Positions 6,177-38,143 of a stretch of DNA of 64,000 bases are shown here, one piece after another. The translations under genes and the position numbers were made by a program. Position 1 is the stretch's first letter. The number at the start of each line of letters is the position of its first letter. The DNA is from Exophiala sp. HKRS030 (lineage: Eukaryota; Ascomycota; Eurotiomycetes; Chaetothyriales; Herpotrichiellaceae), in the NCBI GenBank assembly GCA_023897205.1, contig JAHWDD010000003.1, positions 2,421,665-2,485,664 of the forward strand. Reading direction: 5' to 3'. Under the pieces are notes generated by a model, which worked only from the letters and a program-made list of their open reading frames with translations, was not told where the DNA came from and searched no databases.

Positions 6177-6276
6177 NNNNNNNNNNNNNNNNNNNNNNNN
6201 NNNNNNNNNNNNNNNNNNNNNNNNNNNNNNNNNNNNNNNNNNNNNNNNNNNNNNNNNNNNNNNNNNNNNNNNNNNN
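6177..6276. other. Assembly gap (100 N)
   Basis: Exactly 100 N, the usual placeholder for a gap of unknown size. Sequence on either side differs sharply: normal DNA with a tandem array to the left, RIP-saturated DNA to the right. Confidence 0.98.
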
Positions 6277-12923: not shown

Positions 12924-12931
12924 CGGTGCCG
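12924..12931. promoter_or_regulatory. CGGYRCCG palindrome, CoA ligase 1 promoter
   Basis: CGGTGCCG, 212 bp before the ATG at 13143. One of eight such sites in the cluster; inverted CGG half-sites are typical Zn2Cys6 factor targets. Confidence 0.6.
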
Positions 12932-13142
12932 AAGCAGGAGTGGTACCCGATTGTTACTTGTTTTGATCGCCTTTGACGCTGTTACAATTTAGGCGGCAAA
13001 GTGCCTTCGTGTGAAAATACTTCCGTTCTGTCCCAAGATTGTCGATGTTTTATTTCAATATACCTTATGCCCAGCGTTGTTGAACAAAGAAGGTTCTAGC
13101 ATCTCAACCGGTTCGCCTCGGAATCAACCTGAGAGCAACAAA

Positions 13143-15058
13143 ATGCCCCAAGCCTTCAACCATGGGACTGAAATCTTTTCCCGGGGATTCCCAGAAGTGT
13201 CGCTTCCGACTCAAGACATACTCTCGTGGATCTTTGATGAACCAAGATACCCAGGCGATCAAGACGTACCTAATCTATGCTGTGCGAGCGACTACAGCTG
13301 ACATTTTCAGGTATATATTGACCCCTACATTCCAACGAACTCCCTCAGCCGTGTGGAAGCAAAGACCCTGATCCGTCGCCTCATTGCTGGCCTACGATCT
13401 ACTTCGCTGAAGCCAGGTGACTGCGTTTGTGTCCATTCCTTCAACAACGTAAGAATAGCCAACACCATCCAATAATGTTTTTACTTGACACAGTGATAGC
13501 TTTACTATTCTTGCGTATTCCTGGCCGTTATTGGGGCGGGATTCGTTTGGGCTGGCACAAACCCTGGTTATACCGATTTTGAGCTTCACCATCACTTGCG
13601 AATTTCCAAAACAAAGCTCATTCTGGTCGAACCAGATTTGCATCGCAATATTATTTCAGTTGCGGAGAAACATGAAATACCAAAGAAAAACGTTATGATA
13701 CTCGATTGGTCAAATTATGGATCACTGAATGCGGCACGACCCGGATCATGGATAGAGTTGACTCAGAGAGGCGAACAAGACTGGATTCGTTTCAATGACA
13801 AGGATCTTGCACAATCTACTCCTGCTTGTCTCTTATTCAGTTCGGGAACTACCGGATTACCGAAAGCAGCATTACTTTCACACCACAATCTCGTCGCCCA
13901 GCATACCCTGCTCCAAGAACAGGTGAAGAAACCGTATCAGGTATAATCGTATCATAGCTTGTCGGTAAAAAATGTGCTGACAATTCTTCTAGATCAAACG
14001 CATTCTGTGTTTGCCGTTTTTCCATGCTGCAATGGTCGCCTTAGCACATATCACTCCCTTAGGTCTGGACATATTTCTTATGTGATGAGGAGATTTGATA
14101 TTGAAGATTTCCTACACTTTACAGAGAAATATCAGGTTACAGAGTTATTTGTCGTGCCACCAATTATCGTTTCAATTCTCCAATCGCCCTTAGTCGAGAA
14201 GTTTTCGCTCCGAAGCTTAAGATGTGGCATGACCGGTGGCGCAAAAGTAGATCTACTTTCACAAAAGGCATTCTCGATGCTCATGCATCCCGACGGCTGT
14301 CTGAACCCCTGTTATGGTATGACAGAGATTAGTTGCATCGGAGCATATTACCCCTGGCCGGAGAGAGACGTCGACGGTAGTATCGGGTACTTCCTTCCGA
14401 ATCTGGATGTCAGGTTAGCGAAAGAACTACCCGAGAGGGAAAATGTTATACTGATTTCTTAAAGGCTCTTGGGTGATGATGACCGAGAAATCCGGGATTT
14501 CAATGTTCCCGGGGAGATTTGCATCCGTGGACCAACTGTTATCAAGAGGTATCTTGACAATGACAAAGCGAATGCAGACTCGTTCATAGGGGAATGGTTT
14601 CGGACTGGTGATGTAGCTTACTGCGAGGCGGCATCCCGAAAGTGGTATATAGTTGATAGAAAGAAGGTATACGCAGGCCCCATCAAGTATCATGATATCT
14701 TGCTGATGTGGTATTACAGGAATTGATCAAAGTTCGCGGCTTCCAAGTGGCGCCAGCTGAGCTCGAAGGTGTTCTGATGTCCCATCCAGATGTGATTGAC
14801 GCTGCGGTAATCGGGATTCCAGCTCAGAACGCGGTCGATGGTGAAGTTCCGCAAGCCTATGTGGTTCCGAAAGTCGGGTCAAGCTTGGACGAGAAGATTG
14901 TTATGAAATATATCGCCGGACATCTTGCCAAATACAAGCAGTTGACTGGAGGAGTAGTGTTCCTGGAAAGTCTCCCCAAGACTGCAAGCGGAAAGTATCT
15001 GAAAACACACTTGCGTGAGCTTTGGAAGAAGCAAAGGGTTTCCAATATGAAGTTGTAG
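13143..15058 (+). CDS. AMP-dependent acyl/aryl-CoA ligase 1 (4CL-like), one frame break
   Basis: Exons 13143-13265, 13311-13448, 13500-13940, 13993-14413, 14465-14666 and 14720-15058. A one-base loss near 14058-14062 shifts the frame between HITPL and RSGHISYVM; with it the product would be 554 aa, normal for the family. It shows the ATP/AMP motif SSGTTGLPKAALLSHHN, PFFHAA, GGAKVD, CYGMTE, GEWFRTGD, the hinge IVDRKKELIKVRGFQVAPAELE and the C-terminal PKTASGKYL with the catalytic lysine. It would activate a carboxylic acid (aryl, terpenoid or fatty) to its CoA thioester via an acyl-AMP. The C-terminus is MKL, not a standard peroxisomal tag. CoA ligase 2 in the same cluster has the same architecture. 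Substrate cannot be read from sequence. Confidence 0.85.
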
Positions 15059-15829
15059 ATTTGCTCCTTGGTATTTTCAGGATCTAAAGCACTATGATTG
15101 TTATTGCCTAGCACGTATAACTCGGTCAGAATGCAGTGGCCATTTGAGGCAATTCAAGCTCAAAATGGTCAACACCGTCCACGGTAGCACTAACACGGCA
15201 CCACTTGCTACGTCGACGGTAAACTTCAATCGCTTCCCCGTCAGAAGACCAGTTTCATTGTCATGTCCTCTCAACACTTTAGCCTATTACTTGCGAGTGG
15301 ACATATGGAAGATTATAGGGTATGCTGTTGACTTTGAGCTGTGAATCAGCGGCAACAGTTGATTTACAAATCTTACTAGATTATATTAACATGCTGCCCA
15401 CAATCAAACCTGAAGGGAAGGTTTGCGGAGGTCGCTATTACTCTGTGGAAGCCATTACTAATTGTCAACTACTCATAGGCTTTAGAGCACTGTCTTTCGC
15501 ATGACAAGGGATATGTTAGAAGGCATAAATATCGGACCAGAATTTGCCATGTAGAGTGCCCCATTATCCTAAGATGAGCACCAAGACCGAAGAGTACCTG
15601 TGCCCCGGTACTTTTTCATCTAAAGGCGGTACCGAGCGCAATTTCTCGGTTCATTATCTGTGGTCTGGGCATTCCCAACCCGAGTTCGGCGTTATTCAGT
15701 AGGCAAGAGAGGACTACTTGAAGGACCGGGCAGACCACTCAGAAGTACGGAGGAGAAGTGAAAATCTCATCAGCAGGTTTCATTTGATATAGTGTTACTC
15801 AATCTGTTGGCGACGAAGGTTCAATTCTC
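15059..15829. other. Intergenic, promoter of MFS transporter 1
   Basis: No gene seen; contains the CGGYRCCG site at 15627. Confidence 0.5.
15627..15634. promoter_or_regulatory. CGGYRCCG palindrome, MFS 1 promoter
   Basis: CGGTACCG, 196 bp before the ATG at 15830. Same core as the other seven sites. Confidence 0.6.
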
Positions 15830-17514
15830 ATGGCGCAACAAGATCATCAAAGCGAAACCAAATCGGCAGTCTCACATCATCTTGAAGATGTAATTACGAC
15901 CCAGTCGGAAATCAAAGATGCCCAAGCTCTACGGGGCCTGCAAATAGATGCAGCCGCGGAAAAGCGTTTACTTTGGAAGATAGATTTGTATCTTATGCCA
16001 GCGCTCTGGGTTTTGATGATTATGAGTTACATTGTACTTGTACCACGAAGAATCACCGATGCACACTGACCTTTACCAGGATCGGTCAAACCTCGGCAAT
16101 GCACGAGTTGCAGGAATGTACAAAGACTTGGGCCTTAGCGATCAAGACTATTACCACGCCGTCGTAACATTTCAAGTTGGCTATCTTATTGCTGGCACGC
16201 CTTCGAAGTGGGTTGTATCATTTCGCCTCAGCTTCATGCGCTAATGGCCCCACTTAGCATGATTTTGGTCCGGGTCCGGCCGTCTATCTATCTTCCAGTC
16301 CTGATGTTCTTATGGGGCACATGTGCCACCTGTTTAGGATCAGTTCACACAAAGGGTCAGCTTTGGGCGATAAGGTTCTTGTTGGGAGTGACTGAAGCCG
16401 GATTTGCGGTAAGTTGTGGGCATGATTCGTCGGATATATGCGGCTATCTAATGTCGATCAGCCTGGAGTTTTCTTTCTGATTAGCTCCTGGTACAAAAAG
16501 GCCGAGCAGTAAGTGATTCCTTGAGATGTTAATATCATTAAACTGACTCCTGCCAGATCGAAACGCTTTATAATCTTCCTTAGTGCCTCTATTCTCTCAG
16601 GCGCCTTTGGGGGATCATAGCCGGAGTCATCGCAGGTAATCTTGATGGTGCCCACGGCATACGGGGCTGGCGATGGCTTTTCATCGTGGAAGGTGTTCTC
16701 ACTGTTGGCATCAGCCTCATTGTACCATTCTTCCTCTTGGATTTCCCGGCCATATCGAAGAAGCTTGATGATGATGAGAAACGTCTAGCCGTTGCAAGAC
16801 TCGCTCAGGAAAGCATCACGTCCAGGGACAACGCCAATGCAACACGATTAAGTCATTGGAAGGCATTTGTTTCGGCCATAACAAATTGGCGGTTATATTT
16901 TCTTTCCGTGCCTTATATGCAACTGGTTGGAGCAAGTGCACTATCTTATTTCTACCCTTACCTGGTACAAGGACTTGGATACACAGCTGTAAATGCTCAG
17001 TGAGTAACAAGCCTATGTCAGAAATTCTATCGTCTCACATTCCAGCAGATTCATGACTGCACCCATCTGGGCTGTTGCACTGGTAATCTCAGTGCCTATG
17101 TCATTAATTGCCGACAGATTCCACAACATACGGGCGCTCCTTGTCACAGGAATTATGCTTGGTGGGGCACTTTTTTGTGGGCTTGCAACTGGTATCCTTG
17201 CCTACGTGCCTCGCTACGTGTTTCTCTGTTTCATAAACTCGGCGATATGGACAGGCGCACCTATTGCGCTATCATACGCCACTAGCTGCCTCGGACCAGT
17301 GGACACAGAGACTAGAGCAATCAGTCTCGGAATTGTTAATGGTCTGTCTCAACTTGCACAGGTCTACGGGTCAGCCCTATTTCCGAGCGCTGATGCACCA
17401 GAGTACTACAAGGGTTTTGGTACATATACTGGCTTATTCTTCGTAGGAGCATGTATCATGGGCTGTGGCCATTTTTTGATCAAAAGATATCCATATCGAG
17501 CGGACTTTGAATAG
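15830..17514 (+). CDS. MFS transporter 1 (Dal5/Tna1 anion-cation symporter type), one frame break
   Basis: Exons 15830-16033, 16080-16207, 16258-16408, 16462-16508, 16557-16999 and 17049-17514. A one-base loss at the G run 16610-16614 shifts the frame inside GAFGGIIAGVIAG; restored length is 479 aa. The first helix has LYLMPALWVLMIMSYIDRSNLGNARVAG, split by intron 1, with DRSNLGNAR typical of the fungal allantoate/nicotinate permease branch of the major facilitator superfamily. Then come RFLLGVTEAGFAPGVFFLIS and a central loop followed by six more helices. Members carry organic anions such as carboxylates and vitamins across the plasma membrane. Its place between CoA ligase 1 and the SDRs, with the shared promoter motif, suggests uptake of the substrate or an intermediate; this is inference. 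Confidence 0.85.
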
Positions 17515-17999
17515 TCCTCACAAGGCGCTAGATACCTGGCTTGGCGGAAATGGTCGGGTTTGTGTCGCCTTCCTGGGTGAAGGAATAGATGCACTCTGGG
17601 AAGCTCTCTTCCGTGGTCAACTCTCATGTGAGAGCTTCATATGAGGCAAACCCACCGCCAAGCATTGATATGGAGGAAGATACTGGCGACTTGTATTTCG
17701 CCAGGTTTCACCGAATCAATGCTGGATAAAGCTTTTTGTTCAAGTATCGATCTCGCCTTGGATAGGCCCATCATTCGGCTCTACTTACCAGTCGTCGAGG
17801 TAAATCGTAAGATAGATGCGGAATCATAGACTAGTGGTGGAGCTGGTCGTGTTCCAAGCTGAGGCCCACAGGCTTTCTGGCATCATGTTCGGGCACGTCT
17901 TGTAACTGAACTATCCAAAAGCATGATTTCGACATGGAATCACCTCTTTGCACTAATACAGAAGCTGTTTTCGCTGTGTGGCATCGACGACATGCGTCC
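17515..17999. other. Intergenic between convergent MFS 1 and SDR 1
   Basis: Convergent 3' ends; nothing else recognised. Confidence 0.5.
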
Positions 18000-18924
18000 T
18001 CAATGATGATACAGAGACCACCCATAATCCACAGGTAATTCTACCCCTGTAATAGCTGATGCTTTATCAGACAGCAAGAATACTACTGCAGACGCGACTT
18101 CCTCGGAAGATACGAATTTCCCGGATGGAGAGGTAGGCAAAGAGGGCGCGAGCGCCGTCGCACTGTGACGAGCTGAAGGGAGACAGCGCAGATTTTCTGA
18201 TGCTCCTGGGCAGACGCAATTGATTCGAAACCCTTTACCAAGATAGTCCATGGCAGTCGCTCTTGTCATGCCTACAATGCCATGTGCTGCGGCACAGTAA
18301 CCTGGAAATTCACGATCGCTGGCGAAACCTTGCGCTGCGGCGATATTGACTATGCTGCAGCCCCTGCCTTCACCGCCACGCTTTGTGCGCTCAGCGAGGA
18401 CAGTGCGGATAACTGCCCTCATGGCCAGCCAAATCTGTAAAATTCAACCAGCATATTAGCTTACACTTTTGCCGGAAGGTATAAACTTGAGATTTACCGT
18501 CTTCTGCCAGGTTTCAATAGCATGCAGAAATGCTGTGCTTGCCACATCACCAGTCTTCCCTCTTTCTCCATCAATCCTCTCGCAATTTGCACAATAGTCA
18601 ATACTTTGAAACTTCCGCATACCCTGTTCGACAAGTCGATCAATGTCCGCCGGGATCCCGTATCCGTAGACACTTGAACTAATGTCGACTTTACTGTTGC
18701 TCAAATTCAAGCACCAATCCATAGTTTCCTTCAATTTCCTTTCACATTGGTCACCAAGAATAAGTTTGGAGCAGCCCGCTTTCACCAGTTGACGAACAAC
18801 TGCTTTGCCATCTCCTGCGCAAAGAGGATCAATCCCATTCTCACTTTGAACCAACAATCGAGAAGGGAAGGAACATACCTGAGCCTGCACCGAGCACCAA
18901 AGCAACTCCTTCAAAGGACGACAT
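18000..18924 (-). CDS. SDR-fold protein 1 with degenerate active site
   Basis: Minus-strand exons 18924-18879, 18814-18498 and 18434-18000; 265 aa, frame intact. Start chosen as the ATG giving MSSFEGVALVLGAGSGDG. It has the short-chain dehydrogenase/reductase fold: the glycine-rich cofactor loop GAGSGDG near residue 15, and C-terminally FRINCVCPGA and ITGVELPVDYGW. Catalytic parts differ from the family. The NNAG strand reads ANCER, the serine position reads IVNIAAAQ, and YxxxK reads YCAAAH, so Tyr stays but Ser and Lys are both Ala. Classical SDRs need that Ser and Lys for hydride transfer, so this is likely a non-catalytic or altered homologue. Divergent neighbour SDR 2 keeps the full triad, and the two share one promoter region. 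Confidence 0.8.
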
Positions 18925-19091
18925 TTGGGTTCGTGTTGGAAGGATTCGGCCTCTGCTACAAGATGGTTTGGCCCGCGTCGATCAGCGTGGATGGAATAAG
19001 TCACACAGCCAGATATTTCCATGGCGAAAGCAACCCTGTAAGTGCTAGTTCCTTAGTTATCGGTATCCGCTCGCCGTGCTTGGCACGATCG

Positions 19092-19099
19092 CCGCGCCG
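19092..19099. promoter_or_regulatory. One-mismatch variant of CGGYRCCG between the SDR genes
   Basis: CCGCGCCG differs from the consensus only at position 2. It lies 168 bp from the SDR 1 start and 129 or 177 bp from the SDR 2 start, within the spacing range of the perfect sites. Confidence 0.3.
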
Positions 19100-19275
19100 A
19101 GGTGTGCTCTCCTTGTGTCTCGGTCGCCAGCTCGGCAGAATGTTGCTCAATTCGGTGGACCTGCCTCCAACCCCACACCAAGATTGTCCTGCTCATATCT
19201 AAGAGGGTGGTCCAGTTGAGGACCTTAATGTTGGCTAGAAGACAGCTCGACTGGTCACAACCTGTAGATCAGAAA

Positions 19276-20200
19276 ATGCTTGAGCTTCCAGGAGTTTGTT
19301 TAATTACTGGAGCAGCGTCAGGTAAATAAATCCTGCTTTTCATTGGGACAAATACTAATTTGCAAAGGAATCGGGCGGGGTGCTGCCATCACGCTCGCTC
19401 GAGAAGGATGCGAGAGACTCTTCCTGGCAGATATCGATCTGCCGGGTCTTGAAGAAACTAGCAACCTCATCAAGGAGTCTGGCTACCCTGCTACTGTCGA
19501 GATATCCCGGACAAACATTAGCCGTGAAGATGAAGTTGTAAAGATGGTTGAAAGTTGTGTATCATTGTTCGGTCGATTGGACTATGCGCTCAATATCGCC
19601 GGGGTTGTTCCACAGCGGAAAGGAATCGCCGACGTCGAAGTTGAAAGCTACGAAAAAGTTATCGACGTTAATGTTCATGGTGTACGTATTGCCGGACCCT
19701 GTGGAGTTCTATACATCTATCACAATCCGCTTCACACTGTCGAGTACTGAGAAATAATACCAATAGACCTGGCTATGCCACCGAGCAGAGATCGCGCAGA
19801 TGGTCAAACAAGAGCCTCTCAGCGGCCATAGTTCGACGCGGGGTAGCATTGTCACAGTCTCGTCGCTTGCAGGCATGAATGCATCGAGTGGCATGTCGAG
19901 TTACTGCGCATCGAAGCATGCAGTGATCGGGCTTGCGAAAACAGATGCACAGGACTATGGTCCCGCTGGAATCCGGATCAACGTTGTATGCCCGGGAATG
20001 ATAGATACTGATCTTTTCCGACAAACCAGCCCCCAGACGCGCCACCAAAACTCGCGGCCATTACACCCGTACGAAGGTTGGGACAACCAGAAGATGTAGC
20101 ATGCCTTATGGCATTTCTTTGCACCGCCAAGGCTGGTTTTGTTCATGGGGCAGTGATCCCATGTGATGGCGGATTAGTCCTGCAGCGCGGGGTTATATGA
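19276..20200 (+). CDS. Short-chain dehydrogenase/reductase 2, one frame break
   Basis: Exons 19276-19321, 19368-19681 and 19767-20200. A one-base loss in the A run 20047-20050 shifts the last 50 codons; restored length is 264 aa, the usual SDR size. An in-frame ATG at 19228 would add 16 residues. It has the cofactor loop TGAASGIGRG near the N-terminus, ADID after strand 2 (acidic, favouring NAD), NIAG, VSSLAG with the catalytic Ser, YCASKH with Tyr and Lys, and INVVCPGMIDTD. After the break the expected PVRRLGQPEDVA and PCDGGLVL are readable in the next frame. It would oxidise an alcohol to a ketone or reverse. It is divergent from SDR 1 and sits next to the P450, fitting an oxidation series; substrate unknown. 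Confidence 0.88.
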
Positions 20201-20446
20201 GGAACGTCATATTCACGCGTTTAGTTGGTGCTAATATGTAAGGTAGAGTTCCGCACACCGCCGAAGCACTTGCCCCAAAAGCCTTGTGATTCTGCGAGAA
20301 CACGCAAGTAAATTTTGCCATGATCTGACTCCTGCCTATGCTCAGCACCCAGATCTCAACTGGGTTTACATATTGGCGCCGCGATGGAAAGCACTAGAAT
20401 GTCGTGCTCCAATGCCTCACTTTCGTTCAGAACTGAGCATGCATTG

Positions 20447-22441
20447 CTAATTGAGAACATTGTGCTTATAGTTGCCGGAATCATCAAGTAGTGTCCCTGC
20501 CTCCTTCCATTCTGCCTGCGCAATTGCTACGTGATTTGCGGTCCTGGGCATGAAATCGCACCTGGCCAGCTCCGTTAGCCGTGCTACTTGCACCGTTCCA
20601 AGGGGAAGACGTCAACTTACCGAAAAGGAAGTGGTCGAGCCGCGATGGACTGAGTCACCTCGTCTGGATCGATGTGAATTTCAATTCCATGCTCGTCTCT
20701 AGGTCTCCGCAGTTCAAAAGTCCACAAAATTCTGGCAGCACCTAAGAACAGAGTTCTTTCAGCAATGTGGATCCCTGGGCAGATTCTTCTGCCGGCCCCA
20801 AAGGTCCAGTTATCGCGGTTTCGAAAATCCGCCGCCAACGCTGCTTCGGAGAAAGAAAGATCTGGATTATGTCTGCTTGGATCGAAGTTGCGAGGATTAG
20901 GAAACAGTTTTGGATCATTGTTTGCGGACCACACAGCAAGAACAACGGTGGCACCTTTCGGTATACGATAGCCGTCTACGATGTCGTCGGACAGTGCAGC
21001 ATGTGGTATCGCACCACTTATGGCGGTCGGTAGCCCTGTTATTTGCTTCTAATTAGCTCGTGGTTATGAAGAGATGGTGCAAGGTATCTAGCCTACACCT
21101 TAGAGCCTCCTTTATAGTCTGTCGTATGTAGGGCAGCCTCTCGAAATCATCGATTGTCGGGAGCCTCCCAGAACCGACAATATTATCCAGCTCGTCATGA
21201 CATTTCTTCTGGACTTCGGGAAACAACATCATTGCCTGGAAATCAAATTGTTAGTGGTCGAACGACCTATAGGTTGTGTTGTTGGTAGTCGGAGAGGCTT
21301 GCGCACCTTTATCAGGCCCGCAAGTGTGTTGCTAGTTGTGTCTGCCGCACCTTCCATGGCAATGCCAGCAATGTATGACGCGGCATGGCTGGTCAGAAGA
21401 TCACCATTTTCGCTACCCTTCCAAGTCTCTCTAGCATGGTTAATATCCGCAGAAAAGCCTGTTGATAGATTGTCAGTAGGAATAGTAAATCCTAAGCGAT
21501 GATTCATACTTGGCAAGGAGCCGTCCATCTGAGCGGTACGATTAGCTTCATCGTACAGTTCTCTGAACTGTGCCCTCTCTCGATAAAATACTTGCTTAGC
21601 CTTTCTTGCCATGGGGTACAAAAATGATGGCATCCACTTTACAACTGGCCGTAGTTGAGGATACCAGTCTAGAAGTTTACTGCTGTTTACCATGACAAAG
21701 AATCCATGGGTATTTTTCAGCAATTCCTGCATAACGGGGCTCGTCCTGTCGAGGACTCTGAATCCGTATGCCATACTGGTGGCAATGCTTAGAGTTGACC
21801 TAGTGATAAGCTCTTCAAAACCAACGGGGTTTTCCAGAAGATCACGAATGAGCTGTTTGGTCTCCAGGTCTTGATAGGGAATGTATCGCCCGGCCTTATT
21901 GATATTCAGGAATTGATGATAGAGCTTCCGCTCTACTTTCCAGAGCGAGTCATAACCACGCATGATGATTCTTGAACCTTCCCATATATCCTGCATGTAA
22001 AGTTTTGGCCGATCTGAATAGTTCCCGCTTTTCTTGTCGACCACTTTTTTGATAAATTCGCCATTTGCTAGGACGACAACACTTTGGGAACCCAGCTTCA
22101 AGGAGAATATGGGCCCGTCTGCGAGTGGATGAGGTTCCAAGGTCTCAAAATTCCAACAACCTTTGACTTACATTGTTCTCCCCATTTTTGATATTGGAGA
22201 TGCAGGTCGTGCGTGGGTATCTGATGCAGATTTCCCACTATTGGTAGAGTCGGCGGACCTGGCAAGGATTAGTAAAGCAATCTCGGACTATTTAACCTTG
22301 ACAAACCTGGGGAGCATTTTTCCACCGAGTTGTTGATTGCACGAGCTGAAAAAGTGCTACGATAAGAACTAGGAATAAGGCAAAGATGAAAATAACCCAT
22401 GACTGGTTGGATATCGATAACATTTCGATACTGGCTTTCAT
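20447..22441 (-). CDS. Cytochrome P450 monooxygenase, one frame break
   Basis: Minus-strand exons 22441-22307, 22258-22172, 22118-21510, 21458-21307, 21235-21097, 21035-20621 and 20561-20447; about 550 aa. The N-terminal membrane anchor is [18 protein letters not shown] one-base loss in the G run 22309-22312 breaks the proline hinge that reads [12 protein letters not shown] once allowed for. Other landmarks are the I-helix GAADTTSN, the K-helix KEALR followed by the WLPTA turn, and the haem loop [10 protein letters not shown] (Cys near residue 457). Segment 21459-21509 is open in frame but has splice signals and interrupts the family alignment, so I treat it as an intron. As a class II ER enzyme it would hydroxylate the pathway substrate with electrons from P450 reductase. 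Subfamily not assigned. Confidence 0.9.
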
Positions 22442-23436
22442 GTCCTAACGTCTGATGGGGATCTGGCCGTATGTATGAATGCTTCCCAAATGTCTGCAAA
22501 GTGATCGTCGTCGAGAGAAATATTTGGCGAGATTGACATTTGCAGAGTATGATTCCAAGTTATTGAACACCCGAGGCATGAGATGGGTTGGTCTCTCATG
22601 GTGTTCGCGTTTCGGTGTGTATTTTAGCACGACTCACGCGAACAGGTTGTCTTCCAGCGAGGTGGGTGCCAGTTTCACGGTGCCGTGACACGTGATGCCG
22701 TCCACCTGGCGGGGTTGACTTCGGCGCCGAGCCAACTCGTAGTAAGTACTGGGTATATTCTAATCATGGACAAAACAACCACCTACTCGGATGTTGACAA
22801 AGAGTGATTACTTGAGCTATATTTGTTGCAGCCTATAGTAAAACGGCGACTGATACCTCCAAACGAAGGGCAGACCCTTGCCTTGTCTCAATTATAGAGC
22901 CAGAGGCACGTCACGGGGTCTTGTAGGCAGTAACGCAGAGATGGTTAAGCCTTAATTATACACAACAACTTCCCATAGAGCTCCTGTACCAACGCGAAAA
23001 ACAAAATGTTTACCATTTCGACTACAGTTGAGAAAGTTCCGTGGACCTTCGCCAAGGTTGTAAAGTTTGACCATTGCCGATGTGGAGTTACGCGGTGCTT
23101 CAATGACATGTCCTCGCTGACAATTGTCATCGCACGGCTCTCTATTTGTACCAGCGATGGTTCGGACTTTGAAAGTGAATCAGCACTTACCAACGTCAAA
23201 GTTTAAGCCAAGGTTCTCACGTGACCATTGTGCCTCGGCGAGTGTCGTTGTGGCTTCCCCGGATTCTCCGCATCCGTTTTCTGTTTCGCCCCGCAACTCA
23301 ACTTTTGCACTTCCTCGGTCGATCCGGTGCGTAGAGTTGAGATGGTACCTCTCCTCATCCACAAAAAAAACGATGATATTCAATCTCTCGTCGTCATCAT
23401 AGATGTTCGTCAGCATCATCCACAATCGTCGTGAAA
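22442..23436. other. Divergent promoter region, P450 and Zn2Cys6 regulator
   Basis: About 1 kb between two start codons. Contains the CGGYRCCG site at 22722 and a CGG-N5-CCG pair near 23265. No gene seen. Confidence 0.5.
22722..22729. promoter_or_regulatory. CGGYRCCG palindrome, P450/regulator promoter
   Basis: CGGCGCCG, 281 bp before the P450 ATG and 708 bp before the regulator ATG. If bound by the regulator it could also autoregulate. Confidence 0.6.
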
Positions 23437-26036: not shown

Positions 26037-26193
26037 TAATTGATTCCCATGGAGAAGTCCTTGATCCTTTCTTCAGGCTTTATTATGTTGTCAACTTGGA
26101 CCTAACACAAAGCGAATTGCGATCAGAATATACCGGAGCTAGACCAAAGATGGCTTCTTGAAAACTATCCCCTTTCCCTTGCTACTCTACCGC

Positions 26194-28056: not shown

Positions 28057-28676
28057 TTTGGTTTTCTTTGTCTGAAAAGTGATAAAATCGGCAAAGTGGC
28101 TCACCTCTGTAACTATTAAGAAGACCCGGAAGAGCAATCTATACGGATGCTACCGGCGGCCCCAATATTTGGCTCCCTCGGCATTTCTACTCGTCCATCA
28201 ATCTCGAATTTTTGTGGAGATATTTGGCGAAAGGCACCGAAATCCAGCACAGAGAGTCACTTCCCACAGTCACATGGGCTCGACAGCCATTCTCGGCACC
28301 GCATCCCGACACGGGGAGCGTGCGGGAAGTAGTTGCACAAGGAAGTTCCACTTCCTGTACTTGGAGTGCATGATATTGATAGTCCAGGCTTCGTGGATAC
28401 GAGACGCATCACAAGCTTACCAAATCTCAGACCATGTAGCATTGCATCGTATGCCATTCTGAATTGGTAGAATGAATACACAGTCCTGTCCGTGAACAAA
28501 AAGTTCATGCACGGATCCATATGTATATATGTCTATACTATTGATCGAAGTCCTTTTTCGCGACATATCTAAAATTTTCCATTGTGCTTACCTTCACCAC
28601 ATGTTATATGGTTCTGGCTCTTTTGGCGAGTGCTTGAATTCTCTCGCCTTCTAGTCAACCTTCACACGATCAACCC
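28057..28676. other. Intergenic, BVMO promoter
   Basis: Between the BVMO start and the 3' end of CoA ligase 2. Holds the CGGYRCCG site at 28294; no gene seen. Confidence 0.5.
28294..28301. promoter_or_regulatory. CGGYRCCG palindrome, BVMO promoter
   Basis: CGGCACCG, 238 bp before the BVMO ATG. Confidence 0.6.
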
Positions 28677-30651
28677 TCAAATTTTTGAAGAGTTTTGATT
28701 CATCTTATGTAGAATCCGCCGCATGACTTTCCCACTTGGTGTTCGAGGTATACTTTCGATAAGTTCAACCCCACCTGTTAGCCATTTATGCCTCGACATC
28801 TTTGACTGGACAAATGCCTGGATGTCTCGCGGTTCTATCTTTTGATTAGAGAGTGGCACAACGAACGCTTTAGGGTATTCTCCATCAAATCTAGTGTCCT
28901 TTTAGCCTCTCTTTTGATAGAGCGACATGGATTTACTAACCTCTTCTCTCCAATGACAGCAGCGTCTGCAACTGCAGGGTGAGTCAATAGCATTTGCTCG
29001 ATCTCTGCAGGCGCGACTTGCAGCCCTTTCACCTTTATGAGTTCCTGGGAGAATAATGAGCTTACCATCCTCACTTCTTGAGATTACATTCAATGTTACC
29101 TTCATTCGATCCACGATGTAGAAGCACCCTCGGTTATCAACATAACCAATATCTCCTGTTCGTAGCCATCTCTGACCATCTTCTTCTACAATAGTCTCGG
29201 CAGTTTCTCTCGGCCTCTTGTAGTATCCTTGCATAATATTTGGTCCAGAGACCCAAATCTCTCCAATCATGTGGGCAATGTCGTCCTTTTGTTCAAAACC
29301 TTGGTCGTGCATAGGCACAATTTTCGCACTTAGGTTGGGATTTAGCCAGCCAATGGATCTCCCATCATCTTCATCATCCTGGGCAAAGCCGGTAGCAGAG
29401 CACGTTGTCTCTGTCAGGCCCCATCCTTGCTTGACGCGTACCCCCGGCCGAAGATGGGCTCTTCTGACCATTTCTCCGATCTCTGGATTGAGCGGCGCCG
29501 AACCAGTGACGACCGACTCAATTGCTTTTAGATTGTAACACTTGGCCTGGGGATGCTTCGATAACGCTACCAAAAGCGTGGGAACCCCCGTCAAAAAGGT
29601 AATTCTGTAAATATCAAGGAACAACAGGTACCTTGAAACACTGTACTCCATCATTATGTAGACCTTGACGCCCATGCGTGCCGCGGTAAGACAATAATAC
29701 ATTTGTCCCTGTTGAAGGTATTAGTCTCCTCTACACAATTGCGAATTCGGAAGACCAACATAGGCATGAAACATGGGAAGAGGAGCCAACCATCGCTCCC
29801 CTGAGAGTTCTACTCTAGCTTTTCGTTCGCGCCCCTGCTGCGTATCTGCAACCATCTCTCGCTTGAAAATGACTTGCATTGAGTTCGAAACAATATTGTA
29901 ATGTGAGATTTGTACTCCTTTTGGGATTCCTGTGGTCCTGTCAAGATATTAGTCTCTTCATTCATGAGCAAGAATGAATATGGCCAAGGGAAGTCATGTA
30001 CCCGCTTGAGTAGTTTATTACGGCAGTTGTAGTCTCAGCCTGCTTTCGGCTCGAGAATTTCTGCCAGGTCCATGCTACGCTCTCATCTACCGATGCCCAC
30101 AAATCTGTCCATGCAGCCAAACCAGACTGAGATGGACTCTCCCCTGGAGTCAAAAACTCGAAGATACGTGACGATGATATGCCTGCATGACTTGCTGCCC
30201 TGACTGCTCTGCTTGCGCCAGCGGAACTCGTTATGATCAGTGAGGCATCAGAGTCCTTTAGTTGATAAGCAAGCTCTACAAAAGTCAAAAGCATTATTCG
30301 AGGGCGCGGAAAGAACGACATACCGGTTTCAGACGCGCTTGGTGAACAGCCTGTGAACACACAGCCGGCGGCGACTACGCCCCAGAAGAGAATAGGAAAG
30401 TATAAAGAGTTTCCAGAGTACAACAATACTTTGTCATTTGGATTGAGACCAAAATCCTGAAGTCCTTTTCCTAACCTCCTTACCATAACTTCTGCCTGTA
30501 GAAGACTAAAACAGCGCTCTGGTCGATCCGCGTCAAAGTATTGAGGTTGTGAGCGCTCTTCTGAACTGCGGGAGGAAAAAACATAGGATAGGAGGTCTAT
30601 GGGTGGAATTTCCACCTTGTATGGTGACTCGTGGCGTTGAGCGGCAGCCAT
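28677..30651 (-). CDS. AMP-dependent acyl/aryl-CoA ligase 2 (4CL-like), PTS1-like SKI end
   Basis: Minus-strand exons 30651-30324, 30275-30002, 29937-29760, 29708-29100, 29044-28941 and 28890-28677; 568 aa with no frame break. Motifs are [17 protein letters not shown] (split by an intron), [55 protein letters not shown] and [11 protein letters not shown] with the catalytic Lys. It forms acyl-AMP, then the acyl-CoA. The C-terminus is SKI, close to the peroxisomal tag SKL and plausible for import. It shares a 496-bp divergent promoter with the peroxisomal thioesterase gene. It differs clearly from ligase 1, which lacks this tag, so the two may act on different intermediates or in different compartments. 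Confidence 0.9.
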
Positions 30652-31147
30652 CTTGTCTCAATGACTTTGTGTTCGATGGCAAAGTAAGAAATGGCTATTT
30701 TTCAACAGCAGAGGGTTCAGACCACAGAAAGCTCGCGCCGCTCGATGGATCTCGATCGTGTGATTTGGCAACTCACAGATAGTACCAAGTCGACACATTC
30801 ACGCGTTGGTGTTAAAGCGCGTATGCCAGGTTAGCTACCCTCCGCCTTCACGGCGTGGCACTGCATGTTTCGAATGGTCTGTCACATGCGGAGTCGCCGC
30901 TCATCCCAGGCACCTCAGGCCGAGCTTCGGTACCGACATGCCCAATTTTCACCACACCAGGTCTACGCTAAGGCAGACTAACCTTTCAACTTTCCGGGCC
31001 AAATCCATTGCTGCTTGAATAATCTCGGAAATGTAGCTCTGCAAAAACTGTGTAGGCACAACGAGACGCGAAACCATCGCGTTTACACAGTCGAACATCA
31101 TATTTGTATTACATATCAGCAGACCAGAACCTCCCTGCCGGTCGAAG
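30652..31147. other. Divergent promoter rich in CGG/CCG half-sites
   Basis: Besides the CGGYRCCG site it holds CCG-N6-CGG at 30842-30853, CGG-N5-CCG at 30889-30899 and CCG-N5-CGG at 30920-30930, the densest group of zinc-cluster half-sites in the cluster. Confidence 0.5.
30928..30935. promoter_or_regulatory. CGGYRCCG palindrome, ligase 2 / thioesterase promoter
   Basis: CGGTACCG, 277 bp from the ligase 2 ATG and 213 bp from the thioesterase ATG. Confidence 0.6.
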
Positions 31148-31776
31148 ATGGCTGACGCCAAAGTCAAAGCAGCAGATCGCTATCATACGGACCTCTTAAG
31201 GATACCTGGAATGGCATTCGATGTAGATATACCTGATGCTAGGGACAGAGTACAGGCATATATTGACACGTATCGAAACACAGAAGCACCCAATCACCAG
31301 GTAGTTAACTCCGATGCTACTGGGCAAGAATTCTATTGATCCTTACTCGAATTTAGGGATTTGATGAAGAGTTCATGCGAAAACACATATCTGTCGTCAG
31401 TGCTTCGAGTACGCCTCAAAAGACGACGGCAGTTTTCGAGATGAAAGCGTCTCCAATATTCACCAATCGTATGGGCAATATGCACGGAGGCGCTATAGCA
31501 ATGATCCATGATATGTGCACAACCATGACCGCTGCACCATTAGCAAGAAAAGACTTCTGGTGGTTTGGTGGAGTTTCGAGAAACTTGCTGATAACTTACC
31601 TCCGACCCGTCCGAAAAGATATGGAACTCTTGATAGAGTGTCAAGTCCTTCAACAAGGTGCGCGGCTCTCAACAATTCGCGGCGAGATGAGAGACAAAAG
31701 CACAGGGCAGTTACTCTCGGTATGTGAGCACAACAAGGCTAGCATCGATTTCATAGACGCTCCTTCAAAGTTATAA
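31148..31776 (+). CDS. Peroxisomal hotdog thioesterase (PaaI/ACOT13 type), SKL end
   Basis: Exons 31148-31300 and 31357-31776; 190 aa, frame intact. The single-domain hotdog fold has the family signature NRMGNMHGGAIAMIHDMC (HGG loop, roughly residues 88-106), then YLRPVRKDMELLIECQVLQQGARLS-type strands and a final TGQLLSVCEHNKAS strand. It ends in APSKL, a canonical PTS1, so it should act inside peroxisomes. It would release CoA from a thioester, freeing either a dead-end product or CoA itself. It is divergent from ligase 2 and convergent with the CoA-transferase gene, which ends about 105 bp away. The PTS1 is the clearest sign that part of this pathway is peroxisomal. Confidence 0.9.
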
Positions 31777-31880
31777 AACTCAGCTTTTATGAAGCCATCT
31801 CGTAAAGCTAGCCGAATTACATCCGTAAGCTGCGGTAGGAAGACGTAATATAAGGTCATCGTCATTGAACATTCGGCGGA

Positions 31881-33598
31881 CTATCTGATCACTCCAGTCA
31901 TAAGATCATCCGGCCATCTTGCTTCGTCTACACCATTGCCTCTTGTTCCAACATTATAGCCCAACTTCACAGTGTTCTGAGGAAACCTGAGTACTGGTTT
32001 TGGTACTCTGAAAGTTAAGCCCTCCAAAGCAGCCGATGTCCGAATCTCGAAGAACTCGGGTTCAGCAGAGTCCCTTGCCTCCGTATCATATCAAGGTAGC
32101 GAGGAATCGTGTAGTTCATGCTGTGGTAATGCCGGAATACTTGCTTGCCATTCTGCGTCCAGAGCTCGTTCCAGACATCCGCAGGGTACTCTCCAACTGT
32201 ACCGGCAAGCCACTGATTGTAGTAATTGAGTGAAGTATCCACTAGGAAGGAGCCTCCATCATTGGCTCGCTCCATCAATGCCTCGAGAACTCCACACGTC
32301 CCTGCAATCCCTGTACAATAGTCCGAATTCGGGAACACTGGGGTGACGGCTTCATCATTGCCCATAGCCCGACCGTATCCCATCGATATTCCCGAGTGTG
32401 CATCACTTATTGGTTGCCAACCACTTCTATGGGAGAGAGGCCCATCCCACCCAAAGCAGTTCTCTCGCACATATATGATGCCACGATCTCGATTCTTGAC
32501 TAGGTCGAAAACTTGATCCTGACCAAATCCATACTTGACGAGAACATCTGGCCTGTATCCATTTATGATGACATCGGCATCCAGGATGAGCTTCTGCAGT
32601 TTTTCTCTGTCCTGTAGCTGGCGGAGGTCCAAGTTGCAATTCCATTTGCCCCAGTTAAGGTCTGGCTGCAGGCCTGAGAAATCCGGAAGGTGGCTGGCAG
32701 TGACCCTCATAACACTAGCACCAAGCTCGGCTAGACCTCGTCCAATGGCTGGACCTGCAATCACTCGAGTCAAGTCGACAATCTTTAAGCCTGCGAGAGG
32801 GCGGCGAGCGCCATCAGCTCCTGCTGGTGGCCACCAAGAACGGGGTTGTTCACTTCTTGGATGCTTGACAACACGATACAGGTTAACACCAGAATTTATC
32901 TGCCCCTGTGGACTATTTTTGTAATCGTCGTAACTTAAGCAAATCGTTGCTGCTTGTTTGAAACGCTCTCCTAGGATCTCATCCCACTCTTGCGCTGTTT
33001 TTTGGCTGAGACGATCGATAAATGGAGCCCAGGAATCTTCTAAAGTCGTCAGATGAGGCATATCTTTTGGTAGCCCCACTCCTTCCAGTGACGGATTGGG
33101 GTCCAGGCTTCCGTGGATGTGAAACCAACGGTCATCTTGTGTTTTATAAATATTATAAGCGGCTCGACGATACAAGGACGATGCCATGTTGTGCAGATCT
33201 CCATTTGGAAAATACTTCGCGTACTTCTCTGTCAAGTCGCGTATTGGCGTGGGACTGACTGGTGCATCCAAGGCAGGATCTATCTCCAGCATTAATGATG
33301 ACATAAAGAATAACTGTGCATGATCTGTATTGATATGAACGTCCTTCGGACCTTCATTGTACTTCCGGCCGATGAAAATGTTGATTAGGACCGCCTCGAG
33401 CCCCTTAAGCGTTGCCACACTTTCCGCCAGCCTCCAGTTGATTGGAATACTGGGATTTGCTGACCCTTCAAAGGTAATATGCTCGATTGATGCGTGACTC
33501 TCTGCTGAAAATTTAGTAGAAAGTTTACGTTTGATTTCCCGATCTAGAAGGGCTCTGCACTCTTCAGGCACGGAATACGCTTCTCGTCGTTCGATCAT
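31881..33598 (-). CDS. Family III CoA-transferase (CaiB/BaiF), one frame break
   Basis: Single exon; a one-base loss at 32058-32060 shifts the last about 58 codons, and the restored product is 572 aa. The N-terminal half (IPINWRLAESVATLKGLEA, DVHINTDHAQLFFMSSL) and the C-terminal half starting PLAGLKIVDLTRVIAGPAIGRGLAELGASV are the two-part arrangement of fungal members. PDVLVKYGFG, AVTPVFPNSDYCTGIAG and GGSFLVDTSLNYY follow. Family III enzymes move CoA between carboxylates via an aspartyl-CoA thioester. In this cluster it could activate an acid at the expense of another acyl-CoA (inference). The C-terminal residues after the break are LMTGVIR, with no peroxisomal tag. Many fungal paralogues of this family have no known substrate. 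Confidence 0.85.
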
Positions 33599-33999
33599 GA
33601 TGGCGCAGAGGTGTATGGTGTTGATTTCAACGCAAGCAGTGTCAACTTGATCGAAATTGTCTTTTCAAGGAAGTTTTTCAATGCTGGGCGTCGGTGCCGA
33701 CCACCTAGGGTGTGGGGTAAACAACTCACCAAACTCCCGTCGTGTACGGGATTCACTGGTGTAATCTGATTCAAGAGGGAATCCCCGAACTGTTCTATAA
33801 GTTTTCATAACTAATGTACTCTCCGAACACCGAGAAGTCCAAATTGATAGACGAATCAAACATTCAAAATGGGATATACTGTTGGCTCTACCTCGATTTT
33901 GAATTAATCACTGAGCTACCCAGCTCTATATATCTTCTACTAAATGAAGTACTAAATCAAATCAAATCGACATACCATGCACTACGTATCTATCTTCAC
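33599..33999. other. Intergenic, CoA-transferase promoter
   Basis: Short region between the CoA-transferase start and the AtuA 3' end; carries the CGGYRCCG site at 33692. Confidence 0.5.
33692..33699. promoter_or_regulatory. CGGYRCCG palindrome, CoA-transferase promoter
   Basis: CGGTGCCG inside the longer dyad GTCGGTGCCGAC, 94 bp before the CoA-transferase ATG. It is the most symmetric of the eight. Confidence 0.65.
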
Positions 34000-36310
34000 T
34001 CAAATGTGAGACTTCTTAGTGATGAACTTCTGCGGGATATCTACATGCTTCGCTCGAAGGTACTCGGCCAAATTCTGGCAATGGGAGTTAGTCTTGACGA
34101 AGTAGCAACGGTGCATGGAGAGTGACTCATACCTTTCCCAACGAATCCATTTTGACGGAGCTACTTACTCCCGCGCCCAGAATCCCATGGATGACAAAAT
34201 GAACGGCATGAATACCGGGAAATTCGCAACGCTCTATCAAGGTATCTGGGGTGGCCTCTTTCGCGAGAAGATCTGCAGTTATTGTTAGCTCTCATATTTC
34301 CGGCCTGTACGGTTTCGCGATTCACCACGCAGTCTTGCCGTTGTAAGAAAACTTCTTAGCCATTCGTACTTCTCGCGTTGTAAAGCACCACACGGAAAGA
34401 AGAATCCAACATTCACATTTGCTCCTTTATCGCCACTACGGGCGTACACGGCATGGCCAAGTGGCATTCGAAACGTAGGACCGAAAGACTCCAACGCAGT
34501 AGGTTTACGTGGCTGATAATCTTGTTGGACTGGCAACTTATCACGCCGCGCCCATTTTGTTTGGTGTTGCACGGCCGAAGCAGCTGGATTGGATTTTCCG
34601 CTTACAAATTTGACCTTCTGCTGGACATGGCTTTGATGGATAAGGCCTGGAAAGTAGTTACAGAACACCCTAGGCTCGGCAGTTCTGTAGTCGAAGTTTG
34701 CTGTTAGCCCCGGATATCCGGAAAGTTGATTGCTCATGAGCGGTCCCAGGAATTTCCCTGGCGTGAGGGCTTTCGCATTTCTTGATTGAGCGAGAACTCG
34801 AAGTTGAAGTGTCGCTTCCAGTTGGCTTTGAGGATTCTCTTTCGGTGTTCCGTAGAGCTGGAAATCTAAAATATCAAGTTCACCTTGGTCTACCATTCGG
34901 CGCGACATTGCTTCAAAACTCTCTGCTTTCTCTTTAGTGTCGAGTCCTGTAACATAGACCGAGAACTCGGCCTGGTATCCTCCAACTGCCATGATGGCGA
35001 TTTTCAGAGTTTCTGGTGCCATAGACCCTATTTTCATGATGCCTCATTAGAGTTGAAAGCCTAGGCTAGGATAGCTGACATACCCTTGATACCAGAGATT
35101 TGGACTTGATCTTGGCCTGTCTGTTCCATCTTCACATTTGACAGGTCTGCAATGACGTCTGGGTTATAGTAAAAATTGCCTTGTAGCTCGTAGAGCAACT
35201 GCCCACGTAGTGTATCCGTGTTTACTCTGCAATTTCGAGTCAACATCCATTTAGAGACATAAGTCCCAGCAAGAGAACAGATGGGTCCAGTGGGAACACT
35301 TGCATTCCATTTTGGTTGCCATGTTTTTGCACAAGGCTCGTGGCATCCTTTGTGATGGTCACAATAGGGTAGGATAAATCAAAGTAATTCGGAGCGAGAT
35401 CCTTGAATCCGCCGAAATTCCCACCAGTCTAGACAACGTTAATGGCCACAATGTTGTGAGAAAATGGAAGAGAAATTGCGCACCGCATAGCAACCACACT
35501 CAATTAGATGGCCTGCCACCAGGGATCCCGCCAGACTGTCCCAGTCATCCATTTTCCAATTATGCCACCAAGCAGCAACCCCATGACCTAAAGGAGGTTG
35601 AGCCTGAGATATAACATGTCGCACTGGCGCTTACCGTGCTGGCATCTGTGCATCTGCCACAAATCACTATGTCCGCACCTCTTTCGAGGGCTTGCACAAT
35701 GCCCCAGCAACCGATATAGGCGTTTGCTAGAAGAATTTCAGGGTATCTTTTTTTCCAGCTTGCAAAGTCTCCCGTAGCCAAAGTAAGTGGCTCTATCTGC
35801 ATTTTGTCCAATTTACACAGCAGGTTGTCACCGGTCACGTAAGCAACCTTCTTGCAGCCTCCTCGAGAGGCAATCAATTCGTCTACCATTTGGGCGAGCC
35901 CTTCAGGATCCAGACCACCAGCGTTAACGACTATTCGTAGATTTGGATTTCGATAATGGAGATATTCTTGGATTGCCAGTTTTAAGGAATAAAGAAACCC
36001 GGGCTCATAGCCGCCTTTCCTTCTTTCTTTCTGTTGCAAGGCTCGAGAAGCTAAGTTGACCTCGAAAAGATGGAATGTTAGCAAATTGTCAAAGCCGCAT
36101 TGAGGGTGATACCTCTGATAGCCAATCTCCAATAATGGCGTCAACTGTGACATCGCCAGCCAGCATCGACTTCAAGGCTAAATTATCATTAGCGAAAGCA
36201 ACAAACTATGTTGAACAAGACCACCAACCGTCGAGCCGATCACCAGTTGACCCAGATACATTACCTATGACTACAGGTCGTGAGCCCTCGACCGCTGCAA
36301 TTCGCTCCAT
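34000..36310 (-). CDS. AtuA-family (DUF1446) acyclic terpene utilisation protein
   Basis: Minus-strand exons 36310-36229, 36177-36113, 36060-35635, 35587-35484, 35428-35304, 35226-35084, 35027-34326, 34272-34133 and 34074-34000; about 620 aa. Conserved blocks are PVVIGNVSGSTGDR, GDWLSE, YEPGF, NAGGLDPEGLA, ICGRCTDAST, AAWWHNW, HLIECG, TGGNFGGF, LLYELQG and YYNPDV. The C-terminal AtuA-like domain shows ARSGDKGANVNVGF and CEFPGIHAVHFVIHGILG. The intron 35227-35303 has a GC donor (GCAAGT). The junction of exons 3 and 4 is one base out of phase: either a base is lost near 35587-35635 or an implausibly short 31-nt intron is used. Bacterial atu genes serve citronellol/geraniol breakdown, but the AtuA reaction itself is not established. 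Its presence suggests a terpenoid-derived branched substrate. Confidence 0.85.
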
Positions 36311-36865
36311 CAGAGCTGTCTTCTTTCTCTGTTGTGTCCAGATGTCAATATAGAGTCTGAGGATAGTATAAATTCGAAGCTTGCTATTGGCCAGAATCAG
36401 GCTCAGCTTTGTGTTGAGATTTGGCAGAAATCTTTTATGTCTACTTTTGGAAAGCAACCAGCCATGATGGATTTGGGGTGAGGCGTGAAGTCTGAAATAT
36501 CTTGGCTGTATGCTTGTTAGCCCGAGTTGCCTAGGTAAGCTAAGTAGTAAGTCCGGCGCCGAGCATGTTCATTCCAGGCCCAGATGGCCGCCTTGTTAGG
36601 GTGCATTTCCATCGAATTATGCGTAGCATAGTTTGCATGCGCCTGGGTTGTCATATTAACGATATCAGCAGTGGTCTCTGACCCCTTGACGAGAGCAATA
36701 AGTGATCCATTCAAGTCCACTGCGGGTTTAGTATACCGCATTGTACAGGCTTTGATGCCTAACTGCAATTTCGCCTCCATCTTTGGTTTACAACACTAAA
36801 TTACGAACACACGTATGTGCTCAATCACTAAAGGTCAGTATTTGACGACCTACGTACAAGGGCTT
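36311..36865. other. Intergenic, AtuA promoter
   Basis: Holds the CGGYRCCG site at 36554. An 88-codon open frame on the minus strand (36780-36517) overlaps the site. It matches no family I know, so I do not call it a gene. Confidence 0.4.
36554..36561. promoter_or_regulatory. CGGYRCCG palindrome, AtuA promoter
   Basis: CGGCGCCG, 244 bp before the AtuA ATG. Confidence 0.55.
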
Positions 36866-38014
36866 TCATGGTGCCGCATGGTCTTTGATCCAATTCAAGA
36901 TCAAGTTATCAGTTTTCGTACGCACAGCCGGGTCGAGGAATTTCGACCCGACTGCATAGATATGCATCTGACCCCATTCTATTGTCAACTTGCATGGTAC
37001 TCCTGCTGAGCGACACAATTCAGCCCATTTGACTGAATCATATCGCGCAAACTCTGCCCCTCCAGCGAAGATCAGCTGAGGACTCAAACTTCCAATCTCG
37101 CCCGCGCTCGAGTGAAGAGGGTTGACTTCTGGCGATTCAGGTGAAAGGTCGCCTATGAAAAGCTTGACCAAATTCGGTACGGCAATGTTCGCCATGAGGA
37201 AGTAGTCGCTCTCTACTGCAGCGTTCCCTCCTTTGTAGGCCGTCAAGGTCATGTCAATCCAGGGGAGATCAAGACCGTTGCTGCTGGTTGCGGCAAATCT
37301 AGTCTTTTGAGGTCCAAGCCGGCCAATATGCTCAGGCCACCTCAAAATTCAGTTAGCATAATGCCTTTGGCTCCCGCGGGCAAATCTTACCACCAGCTGA
37401 ATCTCCCATAAAAACTATTCTTTCATGCTCTATACCCTGGTCGAGCAGAAATTTATAGACTTGCAGGAATGCATTTTTTTGGGCTGGATGTGGTGCATCG
37501 ATAGATAGTGCTGCGACACATGTGAGGCGCCGACAGACTGGACCTAAGCAAAGGACTTACGATACTCCACGGTCACAAAAGCTAAGTCGAGACCAACCTG
37601 GGCACCCTTTGTGATCCACCGCTCCATATAGTTGACATACATTCTCGCTTCCCCGCGTGCGTAGCCACCGCCGTGTGCGAAAAGCACAACACATTTCTGG
37701 ATATCATTTTGTGACTGCCGAAATTCGGCAAGATGCCTAGAGCCAGGGATCAAATATGCTGGAATGTCCTCTTGCAACTTTCTTGCACGTCTGGAAGCAA
37801 GATTACCCACAGGAAGTCTATGTGTCAAGTCTGGAAACGTCAAAGATGCGGATGATAGATAAGCTCGCTGAATCTGTAGACGAAGAGATTGATAGGCGGG
37901 GAAGTGAGGAAGTAGAAGACGGCGCAACAGTGCCAGTAGCACTTGTGACAGAAACGAGTGCGAGAAAACCAATGTGCGCCACGGATGCTTCAAGAGCAGC
38001 AATAAAAGATTCAT
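36866..38014 (-). CDS. Alpha/beta hydrolase, hormone-sensitive-lipase type, one frame break
   Basis: Minus-strand exons 38014-37561, 37510-37391 and 37340-36866; about 349 aa. A one-base loss in the G run 37262-37265 breaks the frame at the ISPW segment. A hydrophobic N-terminus (MNLLLLLLKHPW, then FLSQVLLALLRRLLL) suggests a membrane anchor. The oxyanion-hole motif HGGG lies at about 114-117, the nucleophile elbow GDSAG has Ser near 189, and a late His (WGQMHIYAVG) completes the triad. This matches the HSL/steryl-acetyl-hydrolase branch (Say1-like), often ER-anchored with a lumenal or cytosolic esterase domain. In this cluster it is the natural partner for a BVMO, cleaving the ester or lactone. 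The assignment of substrate is inference. Confidence 0.85.
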
Positions 38015-38135
38015 GATGTGTATGGATTTCCAAGTCCTAATCAGACTGTGACACAAAAGGGTTGACCATTCAAATGTCCATTCTGGTGGCTTGTATTGGC
38101 ACTCTAAGAGCTGACCAAGACTGTCTTTCGGGTTT

Positions 38136-38143
38136 CGGCACCG
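38136..38143. promoter_or_regulatory. CGGYRCCG palindrome, esterase promoter
   Basis: CGGCACCG, 122 bp before the alpha/beta hydrolase ATG; the rightmost perfect site I found. Confidence 0.6.

Follow-up and report, generated by a model that had tools for sequence, protein, structure and literature searches.

To our knowledge, operators are known for few fungal catabolic clusters. Here we describe a palindrome, CGGYRCCG, shared by most promoters of a gene cluster of Exophiala sp. HKRS030 (cluster A) that also encodes a Zn2Cys6 regulator. The cluster lies in a stretch of 64,000 nucleotides (contig JAHWDD010000003.1; C3:2,421,665-2,485,664 of the 59.8-Mb genome), hereafter the window, and was compared with a colinear paralogous cluster (B), an independent cluster (D) and a further locus (C) of the same genome. 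The shared palindrome, first noticed in a preliminary description of this DNA, is confirmed, and its extended form, TCGGYRCCGA, is predicted from the sequence to be, more likely than not, an operator of catabolic clusters that would be bound by the Zn2Cys6 subfamily to which the regulator of cluster A belongs. A 10-bp site tied to a regulator subfamily would offer a handle for predicting regulons and their inducers.

Among the described systems, the GliZ site TCGGN3CCGA is predicted in the promoters of all but two genes of the gliotoxin cluster (PMC4006717). It resembles the present element as an inverted TCGG pair distributed across a cluster encoding its own Zn2Cys6 regulator, but has a spacer of 3 instead of 2 and belongs to a biosynthetic rather than a catabolic cluster; at the GliZ spacing, no TCGG-N3-CCGA was found in the promoters of clusters A, B and D. 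The Leu3 site GCCGGNNCCGGC (PMC2930855; also tabulated in PMC1698483 and PMC4227134) shares the core CGGNNCCG, and Leu3 is also the best, albeit weak, solved-structure match to the zinc cluster encoded in the window (E 0.033). However, Leu3 reads its site as an everted CCG-N4-CGG that needs an outer C..G, and serves a leucine biosynthesis regulon, whereas the usual flank in our 17 sites (nine in cluster A, seven in D and one at locus C) is T, which precedes CGG in 24 of 34 half-sites. The Sef1 motif CGGnnCCGnnnnCGG (PMC8557406) likewise sets CGG and CCG 2 bp apart, but adds a third CGG four bases beyond CGGnnCCG. Both the outer C..G and the third triplet were rejected as features of our sites (0/17 each). 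PDR-1/RhaR, whose catabolic regulon includes the regulator gene (PMC5469009), shares the inverted TCGG halves at a Gal4-like 11-bp spacer (TCGG-N11-CCGA). Finally, the Ctf1/Far regulators, which control fatty-acid catabolism through a single hexamer, CCTCGG (PMC5068947), resemble the present case in the combination of Zn2Cys6 and Fungal_trans domains, the TCGG core, the catabolic role and a homologue of our regulator that bears the name cutinase transcription factor 1 beta; the published hexamer, however, shows no clear enrichment in either cluster A or cluster D. Three other reports (PMC3680317, PMC10512302, PMC8929692) supplied only background on the pathway and on Far proteins.

The 2-bp spacer, previously called unusual, is thus less so than claimed, because CGGnnCCG sits within both the published Sef1 motif and the Leu3 site RCCGGnnCCGGY. 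The core is already known inside two published sites; no stand-alone TCGG-N2-CCGA site of a Zn2Cys6 protein came up among the open-licence papers listed, which does not prove its absence.

The palindrome in the promoters of cluster A

Every one of the eight CGGYRCCG sites listed in the preliminary description is exact at its position, and the distances of 94-281 bp to start codons given there agree with the starts taken from open reading frame (ORF) translations of the named genes. Four copies lie beyond that list: one at 22678, in the promoter between the P450 and regulator genes, which is a ninth promoter copy in cluster A; one at 29493, within acyl-CoA ligase 2; and two outside the cluster, at 45699 and 54537. 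The window hence holds 12 copies against 1.80 +/- 1.37 in dinucleotide shuffles, none of 100 shuffles reaching 12. The sites of the cluster are as follows (SDR, short-chain dehydrogenase/reductase; BVMO, Baeyer-Villiger-type monooxygenase).

12924..12931, CGGTGCCG, 212 bp upstream of the CoA ligase 1 start (13143)
15627..15634, CGGTACCG, 196 bp upstream of the MFS transporter start (15830)
19092..19099, one-mismatch copy CCGCGCCG, between the two SDR genes, in an interval without a perfect site
22678..22685, CGGTGCCG, in the divergent P450/regulator promoter, within the 14-bp palindrome TCACGGTGCCGTGA
22722..22729, CGGCGCCG (TCGGCGCCGA), 281 bp upstream of the P450 start (22441, minus strand) and ~710 bp upstream of the regulator start
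28294..28301, CGGCACCG, 238 bp upstream of the BVMO start (28056, minus strand)
30928..30935, CGGTACCG (TCGGTACCGA), between ligase 2 (start 30651, minus strand) and the thioesterase (start 31148, plus strand)
33692..33699, CGGTGCCG (TCGGTGCCGA), 94 bp upstream of the CoA-transferase start (33598, minus strand)
36554..36561, CGGCGCCG, 244 bp upstream of the AtuA start (36310, minus strand)
38136..38143, CGGCACCG, 122 bp upstream of the esterase start (38014, minus strand)

The preliminary description was also right about the one-mismatch copy, the left flank of T or C in seven of the eight listed sites and the pyrimidine-purine centre of all eight, yet the coding region of the MFS gene contains one CGGGTCCG, at 16271. 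Over the 17 sites, both flanks match TCGG..CCGA in nine and at least one flank does so in 15, the centres being CG in eight, TG in four, CA in three and TA in two; the element is best written TCGGYRCCGA. The 14-bp perfect palindrome around site 22678 (window 22675-22688) adjoins ACACGTGA.

The promoters of cluster A were drawn by hand as ten intervals totalling 5,894 bp, with 22,327 bp as the rest of the cluster. Nine of the ten cluster copies fall in these intervals and one, that in ligase 2, in the remainder; eight intervals contain a perfect site at spacing 2. The genome total of 4,196 copies in 59.8 Mb leads to an expectation of 0.41 in the promoters (Poisson 7e-10; even on the extreme assumption that a noncoding third of the genome held every copy, 6e-6). 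By a mechanical, annotation-free proxy for noncoding DNA, namely any position outside every ORF of at least 100 codons, six of the ten copies are noncoding against 0.34 expected (P 1.6e-6), and 187 kb of background held 15 copies, two of them noncoding. The promoter copies of cluster A thus lie far above the genome rate, and the noncoding background, with 2 copies in 47.7 kb, showed no comparable density. Moreover, CGG-N2-CCG ranked second of 39,907 spaced trinucleotide pairs in the same promoters, after an AT-rich pair and relative to a background that is mostly coding, and eleven control palindromes of related composition occurred there once or not at all. The full TCGGYRCCGA numbers 362 genome-wide, with at most two per 28-kb stretch among 50 listed copies, all on C1.

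Recurrence with related regulators

The Zn2Cys6 gene previously proposed at 23437 is borne out by a Zn_clus match (PF00172, 33.9 bits; cut-off 21) in which the six cysteines were found, and a Fungal_trans domain follows (PF04082, 37.6 bits; cut-off 23). Over 81% of the query, it shares 67% identity with a homologue from Cladophialophora psammophila. In viral contigs, a search with homologue P0003 found no related DNA.

Cluster D (C3:1,939-1,951 kb; 20 kb read) was picked for the homology of its regulator, independently of the motif. In this aromatic-type catabolic cluster the regulator, at C3:1.947 Mb, matches that of the window with 47% identity over the best 163 residues and the C. psammophila homologue with 49% over the best stretch. 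It is accompanied by genes for a CoA-transferase (56% identical to that of cluster A), an intradiol dioxygenase, an MFS transporter and RraA-like and NmrA-like proteins. Seven CGGYRCCG copies were found, all seven intergenic in hand-made gene models, and none in the remaining 9.1 kb (local positions):

1522, upstream of the dioxygenase (start 1223)
4002 and 4081, between the MFS and CoA-transferase genes
7400, 7497 and 7610, all three shortly before the regulator start (7639)
10607, upstream of the NmrA gene

Three of the seven are noncoding by the mechanical proxy (P 8e-5), and the full TCGGYRCCGA occurs five times (expectation for 11.5 kb, 0.07; P 1e-8). CGG-N2-CCG ranks fourth of 28,422 pairs, behind three that are themselves overlapping pieces of this palindrome. 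No site stands in the stretch before the RraA-like gene.

At locus C (C1:304-308 kb), the 20 kb read contain a single CGGYRCCG, TCGGCACCGA. It lies in the 636 bp that separate the regulator of the locus from an SDR gene, an interval drawn with the site known and for which 0.004 TCGGYRCCGA are expected. In four regulator relatives that are more distant (L008, L009, L010, L012), no site lies within ~1.5 kb of the match. In regulator C (L040:8171-8344), which is preceded by TCGGCACCGA, serine replaces the third zinc-cluster cysteine, and Pfam finds no Zn_clus domain in the protein.

An operator of a regulator family is the best reading, given that the site reappears beside related regulators, precedes their own genes and occurs in more than one pathway; its presence in most promoters of cluster A, together with its recurrence in D beside a related regulator, suggests that it is probably the switch of that family. 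The earlier inference of a cluster-specific operator therefore stands as far as promoter enrichment and linkage to the regulator family are concerned, but the element is shared by a second cluster, which makes "cluster-specific" too restrictive a label.

Proposed mechanism and competing explanations

We propose that the palindrome would act as a dimer operator read by a small Zn2Cys6 subfamily located inside catabolic clusters. In cluster A, one or two copies would serve most pathway genes from 94-281 bp upstream, and also the interval between regulator and P450. The inducer would be a substrate of the pathway, and the combination of P450, SDR, BVMO, esterase, CoA ligases, CoA-transferase and AtuA makes a cyclic or terpenoid ketone or acid probable. 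With the inducer present, two zinc clusters might bind the two halves symmetrically, and the bound regulator would then activate the cluster genes jointly, including its own. The zinc clusters could face inward on CGG-N2-CCG, or outward as in Leu3 on the same core.

Several observations weigh against this proposal, and cluster B and a break in the regulator gene are its weak points. The regulator of cluster A has an apparent frame break at ~24,560-24,580, upstream of or within the Fungal_trans domain, a region through which the homologues and the regulator of cluster B read uninterrupted; if the break is real, the protein would end beyond the zinc cluster and partway through the regulatory domain. 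An intron was rejected as its cause: 47 GT/GC-AG pairs (38-170 bp) join the two frames, but each loses part of a block conserved among homologues (judged by eye). The change is therefore treated as an apparent break of gene or assembly, that is, either a true gene break or an assembly error.

A genome search that used the AtuA family, the BVMO and the regulator homologue as queries found paralogous clusters; the closest is cluster B (C3:7,291-7,313 kb), which is colinear with A from ligase 1 through the esterase. The A/B alignment comprises 16 blocks in window 13306-37966 at 64-78% DNA identity, one 48-bp block reaching 87.5%; counterparts of the MFS and FAD oxidoreductase genes were not found by tblastn in the 30 kb around B (L037-L039, C3:7286001-7316000). 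The zinc-cluster cores of the two regulators are identical at 31 of 35 residues (counted by eye), and despite this the eight promoter intervals of B (4,254 bp) hold no CGGYRCCG and one CGGGCCCG, CGG-N2-CCG ranking 16,879 of 36,799 pairs. Conserved one-mismatch palindromes (11, against 21 in the remainder) were no better than control palindromes and were discarded. Instead, CTCGG is the first of 512 pentamers in B promoters (26 against 10.1 expected, on a mostly coding background) and occurs in all eight. TCGGYRCC is found four times against 0.62 expected (P 0.004), and there are five TCGG-Nk-CCGA pairs with k = 2, 4, 4, 6 and 8, two of which share one half. For B, either degenerate half-sites suffice, or regulators act across clusters, or such control was lost. 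The P450/regulator promoter of B also carries three TCGGCGC words with a 13-bp period (L038:2036-2068).

Within cluster A, the promoter intervals of SDR 1/2 and of the neighbouring FAD oxidoreductase have no perfect site. Furthermore, the sites were already known when intervals were set by hand in A, C and D, and the mechanical proxy places four of ten sites in A, four of seven in D and the single one at C inside an ORF of at least 100 codons. The background is also mildly overdispersed, for which reason the Poisson values are optimistic: a negative-binomial fit over 39 tiles gives P ~1e-3 for at least ten copies, and one 28.2-kb stretch among the first 100 of the 4,196 copies (1.13 Mb of C1) holds eight, against ten in cluster A. 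Raw density was accordingly dropped as proof, being too weak alone, and the case rests on promoter placement rather than on raw clustering. These figures would speak for chance or base composition of a CpG-containing 8-mer chosen after the fact. We nevertheless hold such an origin to be very improbable in view of the promoter placement, the scarcity of the control palindromes and the independent cluster D; for comparison, a control stretch with seven copies in 17.7 kb (C1:626-645 kb) has four of them in ORFs of at least 150 codons and none with both T/A flanks.

The CTCGG-rich promoters of B, with their TCGGYRCC words and variably spaced pairs, would rather fit a CTCGG/TCGG half-site as the working unit, as in the Ctf1/Far regulators, whose motif is CCTCGG (PMC5068947) and whose name one regulator homologue bears; the palindrome would then merely be its strongest arrangement, other spacings being possible. 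We think this unlikely, though worth keeping in mind, as inverted TCGG pairs (spacing 0-12) stand at the 2-bp spacing in three of four cases in A and five of five in D, and as CCTCGG, with 10 against 3.2 expected in B promoters, is not clearly enriched in those of A (8 against 4.5; rank 143 of 2080) or D (2 against 1.9); the background of the pentamer counts, moreover, is mostly coding. It would be more surprising still if the palindrome were bound not by the cluster's own regulator but by another, be it one serving several clusters or the B or D paralogue in trans. The frame break in A, through which the B regulator reads, and the want of perfect sites in B beside a near-identical zinc cluster speak for such an arrangement, but the sites accompany family members at three loci, upstream of the regulators, and not the four more distant relatives.

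Alongside the family operator, which we continue to prefer, one may picture A and B, tentatively and with considerable doubt, as ancient colinear duplicates that diverged in cis-regulatory grammar and kept near-identical zinc clusters, A with compact TCGG-YR-CCGA dimer sites and B with arrays of CTCGG half-sites. The chemically different cluster D would then share the grammar of A under a more diverged regulator, and, if the A regulator is truly broken, that of B or D may run A in trans. The A/B pair would in this sense represent a natural experiment on how a Zn2Cys6 site changes between palindrome and half-site.

Genes and borders of cluster A

Genes were assigned by Pfam search of ORF pieces, as follows.

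13143..15055, plus strand, acyl-CoA ligase 1 (AMP-binding, intron-split)
15830..17514, plus strand, MFS transporter
18000..19052, minus strand, SDR 1 (region; start approximate)
19278..20196, plus strand, SDR 2 (region)
20617..22441, minus strand, cytochrome P450
23437..26036, plus strand, Zn2Cys6 regulator (six-exon model; Zn_clus in exon 23437-23633, Fungal_trans downstream)
26194..28056, minus strand, Baeyer-Villiger-type flavin monooxygenase (BVMO, FMO-like), single exon
28725..30651, minus strand, acyl-CoA ligase 2
31148..31776, plus strand, 4HBT thioesterase
32015..33598, minus strand, family III CoA-transferase
34285..36310, minus strand, AtuA-family protein
36866..38014, minus strand, alpha/beta-hydrolase (esterase)

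To the right of the esterase, Pfam identifies an FAD oxidoreductase and then an AA9 enzyme. The preliminary description had further suggested that the sites mark the borders of the cluster. This is supported, because their span (12924-38136) coincides with the block colinear with cluster B (13306-37966); the FAD oxidoreductase next to it lacks a site in its assigned 600-bp promoter.

Among the named protein homologues, those of black yeasts (Cladophialophora, Exophiala, Fonsecaea, Rhinocladiella) are the closest and those of Fusarium and Aspergillus rank lower, and the locus tags of regulator and BVMO are 1-3 apart in Rhinocladiella mackenziei, Fonsecaea monophora, Fusarium nematophilum and Cladophialophora immunda. 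AtuA-family matches occur at ~25 places in the genome (46 matches, several per gene), many for a single genome. A scaffold gap of 100 N lies at window 6177-6276.

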